Assembly: GCF_001306145.1 (NCBI RefSeq)
Contig: NZ_LGKO01000002.1
Coordinates: forward strand, 744,001 to 808,000
Origin: Thermanaerothrix daxensis
Lineage (GTDB): Bacteria; Chloroflexota; Anaerolineae; Anaerolineales; Anaerolineaceae
Reading direction: 5' to 3'
Length of the DNA stretch: 64,000 bases
Under the pieces are notes generated by a model that was not told the origin of the DNA, did not search any database, and saw only the letters and a program-made list of their open reading frames with translations. Both the position numbers and the translations under genes were made by a program. This document shows, in pieces, positions 37,425-39,806 of the stretch (positions within the stretch are counted from its first letter, which is position 1; every line of letters begins with the position of its first letter).

Positions 37425-37751
37425 TTACTCGGGTAGCATTAGCAACAGCATACGCAGGTCCGTATGAGCAAGGAGAGCATGGGGCGTGTGGGCTTCCATG
37501 AAAACCCAGGCGCCGTCGCGTAGCGTATAAACGTCCTTACCCAGCCTTAAATCGCATTCACCTTCCAGGATGTGAATAACCGCCGGCATGGAAGCCGTGT
37601 GTTCAGAGAGTTCTTGCCCGGCGCCAAAGGCAAAAAGGGTAACCTTGAGACGCGGGTGCTGAAGTAGCGTGCGGCTGAGAATGCTATTGGCTGGGACGGT
37701 GGGAGTGAGAGAGGTCAGATTCTCAAATAGGATATAGGGTTTGTCCATCAT
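37425..37751 (-). CDS. Small cupin-domain protein
   Basis: This 108-residue single-domain cupin contains FGAGQELSEHTASMPAVIHILEGECDLRLG, the first cupin motif (His52 and Glu-type metal ligands), and THPHAL-like HTPHALLAHTDL in the second. GAGGTAA lies about 6 nt before ATG 37751; a second ATG follows directly. The stop lies 4 nt beyond the convergent surface-protein gene. Cupins of this size bind metals, small molecules or act as isomerases; the function is not assigned. Confidence 0.85.
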   Translation of the reverse strand: MMDKPYILFENLTSLTPTVPANSILSRTLLQHPRLKVTLFAFGAGQELSEHTASMPAVIHILEGECDLRLGKDVYTLRDGAWVFMEAHTPHALLAHTDLRMLLLMLPE

Positions 37752-37923: not shown

Positions 37924-38865
37924 ATGGTAGCAAAGGGTTTGGATTGGCAGGTGGCACTCTCGATTTTTGCAGGGAGTCCGGCGCAAATTTGGGAATTGCG
38001 GGGGCTAGACCCCTCTCCTGAGGAAACCTGGGATCACTTAAGGGCCTATCTTCATCTGGATGAGGGTGATATACGGGCCATGCTTGAAACCGTCGAGCCG
38101 CTTTTTCGGCAAGGTCATGATCTGGTTGTTGAAAATTACGCTTACCTGGAGGCGTTCCCTGAAACGGCGGCATTGCTTGGGTGGAGTGGAGGGGCAGACC
38201 CCCAGCACCTGGCAGAGCGGCGCCGTTTCTTTACCGTGTGGTTGGCACGCACTCTGGGGCTGGATTTTAGCCATGATTTTGCTCGTTACCTGTTCCGTGC
38301 GGGCCAGATTCATGCGGGGCATGGACGGCGCCACTTGCACATTCCAAGCCTGTATGTGGTGGGGAGCATTGGTCTGATGACAGCAAGTTTTGCCCGTGTC
38401 CTGGAACAGGCGGGTGTAAGAACGGATACGCAGTTAAAGGCGCTGGCGGGCTGGAATAAGGTGTTCATCCTCCATCTCCAAATGATGCTCCAGGGATACC
38501 GAAGCGCCCTGGCGTTAGAGGAAGGGGAAACAAAAGTGAGAGTCACAGTTTATGGGCGGTTGCGTTCGTTGATCGGACGGGACTCGCTAGAGATCGGTAT
38601 CTACCCAGGCCAGAGTGTTCTGGAAGTCCTGCGAAAATTTTTCAACTATTACCCACAAGCCCGTTCGGAGATCCTGGAAAGCCTGTGGGAAAGTCAGCAT
38701 CACGATGATGCACGCGGCAATCCCTGGATGGAGGTGGAACGGGTTTATCGGCCCCGCGCTGGTTGGCGAATTCTGCGCAATGGGCGGGATATTGCCTATC
38801 TGGCGGAGGATCAATGGCGCCTGGAGGGTGCTGATCAATTGGCCATCTTTCCGCCAGGGCGGTGA
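37924..38865 (+). CDS. Protoglobin-type haem domain fused to a MoaD-like ubiquitin-fold domain
   Basis: Residues about 5-195 resemble the globin domain of globin-coupled sensors and protoglobins: helical, with GRRHLHIPSLYVVGSIGL (134-151), where His137 fits the proximal haem ligand (family pattern HxxIG..WY). Residues about 204-313 resemble MoaD: VRVTVYGRLRSLIGRD, PGQSVLEVLRKFF, then ILRNGRDI and the C-terminal ADQLAIFPPGR. MoaD proteins end in Gly-Gly for adenylation and thiocarboxylation; this one ends Gly-Arg, so sulfur transfer is doubtful without processing. A region (255-280) is inserted in the ubiquitin fold. AAGGTGG precedes ATG 37924. The fusion is unusual; oxygen, NO or redox sensing linked to the MoaD-like part is inference. 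Confidence 0.72.
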   Translation: MVAKGLDWQVALSIFAGSPAQIWELRGLDPSPEETWDHLRAYLHLDEGDIRAMLETVEPLFRQGHDLVVENYAYLEAFPETAALLGWSGGADPQHLAERRRFFTVWLARTLGLDFSHDFARYLFRAGQIHAGHGRRHLHIPSLYVVGSIGLMTASFARVLEQAGVRTDTQLKALAGWNKVFILHLQMMLQGYRSALALEEGETKVRVTVYGRLRSLIGRDSLEIGIYPGQSVLEVLRKFFNYYPQARSEILESLWESQHHDDARGNPWMEVERVYRPRAGWRILRNGRDIAYLAEDQWRLEGADQLAIFPPGR

Positions 38866-38960: not shown

Positions 38961-39806
38961 ATGACCGTGATTTCGGAGGTACGCCCTTCACCGATCGCGG
39001 GTTTGTGGTACAGCGGTGATCCCATCGAACTGGCCGCCCAGGTGGATCGTTACCTGGAGGAGGCTAAATTACCCCCCTTGGTGGGGGAAGTGGTGGGGGT
39101 GATTGCTCCTCATGCCGGCCATCGCTATTCAGGGCGCACAGCGGGTTACGCCTTCAAAAGCGTATTCGATCAGAGCCGCGACTTGGTCGTTGTGGTTTCA
39201 CCATATCATCGCTTTCATCCTGCTCCGGTGCTGACAACGGCGCATCGCATGTACGAGACGCCCCTGGGCACGATTGAAGTTGACCGCGATTTGCTTGTTC
39301 GGCTGGACGAGACTTTACAAAATAGACTTCAAGTGGGACTCACACCTATTGCCAACGATGATGAGCATTCACTAGAGATTGAACTTCCGTTTTTGCAACG
39401 CGCTTTGCGGGGGCGTTTCAAGTTACTTCCGCTCATGCTTCGCAGTAAGCATGAGGAGTTGTTACGCGTTTTGGGCCAGGCACTGGCAGAAATGGTGCGC
39501 GACCATAACTACCTGCTAGTAGCCAGCACGGATCTTTCCCATTTTTATCCCGAGAAAGTGGCGCGCCGCCTGGATGGTGAGATGCTTCGCCAGATGGCGC
39601 GATTTTCTCCGGAGGGGGTGCTTCAGGCCGAAGAAAATGGGACCGGTTTTGCTTGTGGTGTGGCGGCCGTGGTGACCGTGATGATTGCTGCCAAAGCCTT
39701 GGGAGCCAATCACATTGAAATTTTGGATTACACCACGTCGGCGGACACTACGGGAGATACCACTTCTGTGGTGGGCTACGGTGCGGCTGCAATTTTGCGT
39801 CGCTGA
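38961..39806 (+). CDS. MEMO1-family (AmmeMemoRadiSam protein B) protein
   Basis: This 281-residue protein begins with SPIAGLWYSGDP and has PHAGHRYSGRTAGYAF near residues 50-65, NDDEHSLEIELPFLQRA, VASTDLSHFYP and a C-terminal TSADTTGDTTSVVGYGA block, which together mark the MEMO family (fold related to extradiol dioxygenases). In prokaryotes it often accompanies an AMMECR1 protein and a radical SAM enzyme, neither of which is in this window. Metal ligands are probably His51, His near 131 and His near 192. Function unknown. It may be co-transcribed with priA, 17 nt downstream. Confidence 0.9.
   Translation: MTVISEVRPSPIAGLWYSGDPIELAAQVDRYLEEAKLPPLVGEVVGVIAPHAGHRYSGRTAGYAFKSVFDQSRDLVVVVSPYHRFHPAPVLTTAHRMYETPLGTIEVDRDLLVRLDETLQNRLQVGLTPIANDDEHSLEIELPFLQRALRGRFKLLPLMLRSKHEELLRVLGQALAEMVRDHNYLLVASTDLSHFYPEKVARRLDGEMLRQMARFSPEGVLQAEENGTGFACGVAAVVTVMIAAKALGANHIEILDYTTSADTTGDTTSVVGYGAAAILRR

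Follow-up and report, generated by a model that had tools for sequence, protein, structure and literature searches.

A fusion of a protoglobin-type globin to a MoaD-like domain without Gly-Gly, conserved in Chloroflexota and shared with Thermus plasmids

Analysis of a 64,000-nucleotide stretch of the Thermanaerothrix daxensis genome (GCF_001306145.1, NZ_LGKO01000002.1:744,001-808,000; this whole stretch is termed the window, and positions without a prefix follow its numbering) identified a gene whose product joins a protoglobin-type globin to a MoaD-like beta-grasp domain (Table 1). The fusion is real: it is encoded by one intact open reading frame (ORF) with an ATG start, 313 codons of protein and no internal stops, and both halves are backed by structure prediction; a purine-rich AAAGGTGG lies a few bases 5' of the ATG. 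The globin half keeps the residues expected of a haem sensor, whereas the MoaD-like half ends in PPGR in place of the Gly-Gly of MoaD. We propose, at a probability somewhat below 40%, that the protein is a gas- or redox-sensing, nontransferring mimic of MoaD that gates molybdenum/tungsten (Mo/W) bis-pterin enzymes.

Results

The globin half matched Pfam Protoglobin (PF11563) with an E value of 6.7e-14 and 52.6 bits, against a curated cut-off of 25, and the match was found in all 14 aligned orthologues. An AlphaFold2 model of the fusion built from 14 orthologues reached a pLDDT of 84.1 and a pTM of 0.80, with values below 50 at residues 1-16 and 137-139. Residues 30-197 of the model superimposed on the Tlr1989 globin (8h17) with a Z score of 17.7 and a root-mean-square deviation (rmsd) of 2.6 over 155 aligned residues, followed by the AfGcHK globin domain (5ohf; Z 17.4) and 2veb (Z 16.2).

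Residue conservation was assessed in 55 distinct full-length Chloroflexota sequences, after removal of 10 partial domain rows (7 loci) and exact duplicates. His130 and Tyr72 were invariant (55/55), His139 was kept in 54 and His133 in 53. In the globin-half profile, His130 aligned with His99 of AfGcHK, His120 of the Methanosarcina acetivorans protoglobin (MaPgb) and His93 of the Geobacter sensor GsGCS, and Tyr72 with Tyr45 of AfGcHK and Tyr61 of MaPgb; the residue numbers of these solved relatives, counted by hand from the printed profile alignment, are those that we take to be the haem ligand and the distal Tyr, respectively. Proximal His and distal Tyr roles in the globin-coupled sensor family are described in the parts of PMC10882959 and PMC5549716 consulted. 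Thus, His130 is the putative proximal ligand and Tyr72 the putative distal Tyr, from which we infer that the protein binds haem; given that both residues are invariant, sensing of O2, nitric oxide (NO) or redox state by the globin half is plausible. An initial annotation of this DNA, made from its letters alone, had named His137 as the ligand and had staked its assignment on that residue being kept in orthologues. His occupies position 137 in only 13 of the 55 sequences, which rules it out as the haem ligand; the wrong residue had been singled out. The T. daxensis genome also encodes a second, stand-alone protoglobin (G000:C4:120165-120671, locus L114; 125 bits).

For the C-terminal half, the profile matches of the window protein itself were below threshold: Pfam ThiS at residues 207-311 (E 0.056, 14.4 bits; cut-off 22.5), NCBIfam moaD_arch (E 5.2e-8, 33.3 bits; cut-off 49.5) and, likewise, SAMP1. 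ThiS was matched at E≤1 in 14/14 aligned orthologues, with a best value of 2.4e-9. Model residues 202-312 superimposed on Haloferax volcanii SAMP1 (4hro) with a Z score of 13.2 and an rmsd of 1.5 over 86 aligned residues, and on a Thermus thermophilus MoaD related protein (1v8c) with a Z score of 12.4 over 84 residues; a profile match to 2m19 (E 4.1e-8) was also obtained. The last globin helix spans residues 167-199 and the first MoaD strand begins at residue 203, leaving a linker of three residues. The proposal in the initial annotation that a globin-coupled-sensor-type domain is paired with a MoaD fold was therefore borne out by the profile match and by the finding of both folds in the model.

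The annotation had also suggested a ubiquitin-fold carrier, which is unlikely in view of the C terminus. FPPGR or YPPGR ends 54 of the 55 orthologues (the exception, L086, ends in PPWVTYF), and a terminal Gly-Gly is absent from all 55 as well as from the two Thermus homologues translated; no Gly-Gly that trimming could expose lies just upstream of PPGR. In the tails of 14 standalone MoaD proteins (L006, L008, L015, L020, L043, L045, L052, L060, L063, L065, L067, L068, L080 and L086), Gly-Gly follows the FP motif by 2-3 residues in 13, mostly at or near the end, with a longer in-frame stretch after it in L063 and L065; the MoaD of L086, with FPKTG, is the only one without it. Because PPGR stands in place of Gly-Gly, the MoaD half of the fusion should not be adenylated or loaded with sulfur. 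The T. daxensis genome holds a GG-tailed MoaD adjoining its gene for a tungsten aldehyde oxidoreductase (AOR), a MoaD-MoaE protein and a ThiS, and the MoaD half of the fusion is therefore an extra copy without Gly-Gly.

A search of 396 Anaerolineae genomes at E≤1e-10 matched 67, comprising 60 full-length fusions, 2 partial ones and 5 globin-only proteins. In a set of 400 Chloroflexota genomes searched at E≤1e-15, 7 matched, 5 of them outside Anaerolineae, and short exact peptide patterns recovered 13 loci from contigs, all in Chloroflexota. Among the 101 genomes nearest to that of T. daxensis, two-domain copies were found only in T. daxensis, its sister and genome G072; the fusion is therefore sporadic in its own family. 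Beyond Chloroflexota, the survey covered the peptide patterns in contigs and plasmid records, the latter giving 15 matches, all in Thermus, of which 14 covered at least 80% of the query (34.0-35.5% identity among the ten matches listed); phage records held no match to the fusion. The same architecture is thus found well beyond the genome in which it was first noted. In genome G381 (L090:6841-8165, + strand), the fusion frame breaks off in the MoaD half and AOR coding follows in another frame, through deletion or misassembly.

Fusion-bearing genomes are enriched in a particular type of AOR. An AFOR_N protein was present in 60/60 fusion genomes (listing read by eye) and 244/336 others (Fisher, 5e-8), and an AOR clade, defined by at least 59% identity to the AOR protein of L015, was present in 55/60 and 47/336, respectively (p 7e-33, in a statistic that ignores kinship). 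At a cut of 65%, the counts were 45/60 and 33/336, so the result depends on the cut. The partial genomes G361 and G381 were scored as fusion-less, and G361 is among the 47 with the clade. The five fusion genomes without a clade AOR are G326 and G369 (both 72% complete), G461 (87%), G291 and G480, where a contig end leaves the N-terminal 125 residues of one (84% identity). Outside the class, where five genomes carry the fusion, a clade AOR is encoded in G771, G657 and G685 have fragments of 82-86% identity, and G566 and G808 have none. The clade AOR of T. daxensis itself (G000:C2:478623-480434; 73% identical) has as its closest solved relative the tungsten-dependent WOR83 of H. volcanii (9q1t; E 4.9e-214). 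A selenocysteine tRNA (L101:17062-17154, - strand) lies about 7.6 kb from this AOR gene.

The gene neighbourhood was scanned at 60 distinct loci, with gene clusters first built on 49 loci; L024, L025, L026 and L028 (duplicates) and L089 (a contig-end fragment only) were dropped, and the counts are lower bounds, as many contigs are short. Within 5 kb of the fusion, a clade AOR was encoded at 27 loci, MoaD at 24, DUF1952 at 21 and any of the three at 30. Gene orders vary and include AOR downstream on the same strand, MoaD-DUF1952-fusion with a convergent AOR, and a fusion-MoaD-DUF1952 row. At another 17 loci, nosZ, nosL, a small COX1-like protein or a member of two uncharacterised membrane families is encoded within 8 kb; nosZ or nosL lies within 8.5 kb at 7/60 loci. 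Contexts of the AOR and respiratory types were found together at none of the 60 loci; where both flanks reach at least 5 kb (30 loci), the AOR context was seen at 13 and the respiratory one at 10. The window locus has no AOR nearby, the AOR gene of its genome being on another contig. In G771, a clade AOR, DUF1952, MoaD and a putative moeA (read by eye) are all encoded within about 13 kb of the fusion. After the fusion in this genome, an apparent iron alcohol dehydrogenase and a [NiFe] hydrogenase cluster were seen by eye (L104:8440-15604, - strand).

The Thermus homologues (e.g., WP_014511187.1) have the same two domains and align with about 90% of the window protein at about 34-36% identity, and PPGR ends both of those translated; the record name of WP_014511187.1, "protoglobin domain-containing protein," covers the globin half only. 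A small COX1-like gene precedes the homologue in each of the four Thermus plasmids examined, with 2 bases between them. The COX1-like gene directly follows two DUF2249 genes in pHB5018b, pTHTHE1601 and TF21c, while in TTHNAR1 a transposase gene intervenes; judged by place, length and domains, the two DUF2249 genes are drpA and drpB. A 383-residue membrane protein and an FeS_assembly_P protein are encoded after the homologue in 3/4 plasmids, and narGHJI lies upstream of it in 3/4; the small T. brockianus plasmid has, of the nitrate genes, only a nitrate/nitrite transporter. Nitrate reductase is another bis-pterin Mo/W enzyme, and AOR and nitrate reductase both serve under low oxygen or in the presence of N-oxides.

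Table 1. Positions of the fusion gene, its parts and selected neighbouring genes
Feature	Position	Strand	Basis
Whole gene, protoglobin-type globin + MoaD-like beta-grasp fusion, 313 aa	37924..38865	+	ORF; conserved as a fusion in 60/396 class genomes
Protoglobin domain, residues 34-195	38023..38508	+	PF11563 E 6.7e-14; fold match 8h17 Z 17.7
Tyr72, putative distal (B10) Tyr	38137..38139	+	Invariant 55/55; aligned to known Tyr positions; codon checked
His130, putative proximal haem ligand	38311..38313	+	Invariant 55/55; aligned to known His positions; codon checked
His137, ligand proposed in the initial annotation, unconserved	38332..38334	+	His in 13/55
MoaD-like beta-grasp domain, residues 203-313	38530..38862	+	Model strands from 203; 4hro Z 13.2, 1v8c Z 12.4; 2m19 profile E 4.1e-8
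C-terminal PPGR tail, replacing MoaD Gly-Gly	38851..38862	+	54/55 orthologues; both Thermus homologues translated
Small cupin gene, divergent, adjoining the fusion	37425..37751	-	Pfam Cupin_2 1.8e-8; relative within 8 kb of the fusion at 13/60 loci, window included
DUF1952 example	L015:7985-8239	-	One of eight aligned
DUF1952 example	L060:8923-9162	-	One of eight aligned
DUF1952 example	L067:5384-5644	+	One of eight aligned
Membrane family with invariant His, example	L085:6057-7178	+	
Membrane family with invariant His, example	L107:9309-10655	-	

Several other features of the loci were recorded. All eight aligned DUF1952 proteins from beside AOR-linked MoaD have R-[G/A]-G-[G/A] at the C terminus, resembling a ubiquitin tail, and DUF1952 is a candidate second carrier in the AOR clusters. 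A membrane family with invariant His residues (54, 285 and 299 in L085) is encoded within 5 kb of the fusion at 13/60 loci; it has no solved relative and no convincing Pfam family. For the neighbouring membrane protein clu3 (10 sequences), the search at E≤1 gave no solved relative, and Pfam matches were stray ones in single members. An Rfam search of seven loci (L015, L052, L058, L017, L021, L101 and L104) found no molybdenum cofactor-type RNA at gathering score; only RNase P and the selenocysteine tRNA, both in L101, reached that score. In the window, the next gene 3' of the fusion (38961-39806, + strand) encodes AmmeMemoRadiSam system protein B (MEMO) and is outside the clusters that recur beside the fusion.

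Discussion

The fusion shares its globin fold and the positions of the proximal His and distal Tyr with globin-coupled sensors (AfGcHK, HemAT, DosC and the Tlr1989 globin) and with the protoglobins of M. acetivorans and A. pernix. As in the globin-coupled sensors covered by the consulted parts of PMC10882959, an N-terminal sensor is joined to a C-terminal partner on a long helix; there, the outputs are chemotaxis, signalling and second-messenger modules. The C-terminal domain of the fusion is instead MoaD-like and not a kinase, cyclase, phosphodiesterase or chemotaxis module, so it is no output of an established signalling type, and the linker is very short. The initial annotation knew no such pairing among described sensors, and the literature that we searched, which lay outside subscription papers, preprints and domain-architecture databases, contains no description of a globin-MoaD architecture. 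The word "globin" is absent from three surveys of beta-grasp and ubiquitin-like proteins (PMC1779556, PMC1949818 and PMC2948915) and from the main text of PMC6282519, PMC7694296, PMC10989939 and PMC3764938.

A MoaD fold and, at many loci but not that of the window, an AOR gene alongside are shared with AOR-linked MoaD (Iyer et al. 2006, PMC1779556) and with aorD/aorE of the Aromatoleum AOR operon, as far as the consulted parts of these sources (PMC6365974 for the latter) describe them; the fusion differs in that its MoaD sits behind a globin and lacks Gly-Gly, and a GG-tailed MoaD is usually present too. The T. thermophilus protein 1v8c, which holds MoaD and DUF1952 in one chain, shares the MoaD fold but has no globin; its second domain is the one encoded within 5 kb of the fusion at 21/60 loci. 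Architecture and PPGR tail are shared with the Thermus plasmid protein, whose context is that of nitrate respiration. As the tail is fixed between phyla at about 35% identity, a partner protein probably reads it.

We suggest that the globin half would bind haem via His130, with O2 or NO as a ligand near Tyr72, and that a change in haem state might travel along the last globin helix into the first MoaD-like strand; this helix-to-strand join is reminiscent of the signalling helix put forward for globin-coupled sensors (PMC10882959, in the parts consulted). The MoaD-like half could then dock at a site made for MoaD, on molybdopterin synthase, MoeB or an enzyme under maturation, and O2 or NO would then determine how the W/Mo bis-pterin cofactor is supplied or inserted, or how active the target is. 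The target may be the tungsten AOR in many Chloroflexota and the nitrate respiration system in Thermus. In this more specific form, in which a haem-gated pseudo-MoaD with its nearly invariant PPGR tail and an O2- or NO-sensing globin switches the maturation or activity of a W/Mo bis-pterin enzyme, the proposal is doubtful.

Several observations weigh against a MoaD mimic that gates such enzymes. There are 47 genomes that carry the AOR clade without a full fusion, the co-occurrence p value is uncorrected for relatedness, and G291, at 94% completeness, holds the fusion without a clade AOR. The 17 loci in a respiratory or denitrification-type setting have no AOR nearby, and another 13 of the 60, including that of the window, are in neither context. 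A further expectation, that AOR holders with the fusion would be the oxygen-respiring ones, also failed: COX1 was found in 37/40 fusion genomes and 38/40 fusion-less genomes with the AOR clade. In the same sample, which took 40 of the 60 fusion genomes and 40 of 46 fusion-less AOR-clade genomes (G361 omitted), all at least 85% complete, and left out 8 further fusion genomes of that completeness, nosZ was found in 16/40 and 8/40, respectively (p 0.087).

The protein might instead sense gas to control anaerobic respiration at the level of transcription, its MoaD-like half serving as a protein-binding output toward DrpA/DrpB, Crp/Fnr or cupin proteins and taking no part in cofactor chemistry. The Thermus gene follows drpA/drpB-like DUF2249 genes, and nar induction no longer responds to nitrate once drpAB are deleted (PMC6282519, in the parts consulted). 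In Chloroflexota, a relative of DrpA is encoded near the fusion in L057 (66%), L106 (43%) and L107 (45%), Crp/Fnr relatives lie within 5 kb at 6/60 loci, and cupins recur as well (Table 1). However, the AOR, MoaD and DUF1952 genes found at half of the loci are enzyme and cofactor genes, and a general binding output would hardly call for a MoaD fold with a fixed tail; we consider transcriptional control rather unlikely. It is less likely still that the globin binds or consumes O2 or NO, in the manner of a dioxygenase or peroxidase, beside a sensitive metalloenzyme to which the MoaD-like half tethers it. The denitrification-type neighbours would suit such a scavenger, whereas the distal Tyr follows the sensor pattern, no reductase partner gene recurs among the clusters inspected, and the short, stiff link fits signalling, although none of these three points is decisive. 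That the protein is a genuine, haem-controlled sulfur carrier or ubiquitin-like modifier, for which the nearness of the fold to SAMP1 and MoaD and the 24 loci with MoaD genes within 5 kb would speak, is very improbable: the absence of Gly-Gly from the 55 Chloroflexota and two Thermus copies, at the end and just inside the tail, rules out a Gly-Gly carrier, and the T. daxensis genome already has the GG-tailed MoaD, MoaD-MoaE and ThiS proteins described above. A MoaD half without carrier chemistry, a tail fixed across phyla and bis-pterin enzymes as neighbours together lead us to favour the gas-controlled MoaD mimic over these rivals.

The partner of the globin in this protein is thus the fold that hands sulfur to the Mo/W cofactor, with another tail, fixed across two phyla, in place of the one needed for that chemistry. 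The question of its role is directly testable, since T. thermophilus has homologues whose neighbouring drpAB genes have already been deleted and studied (PMC6282519, in the parts consulted). If the MoaD mimic proposed here is correct, it would constitute a direct posttranslational link from gas sensing to the use of the Mo/W cofactor, common to Chloroflexota and Thermus, and it would help to explain how oxygen-sensitive tungsten enzymes are kept by bacteria that respire oxygen.
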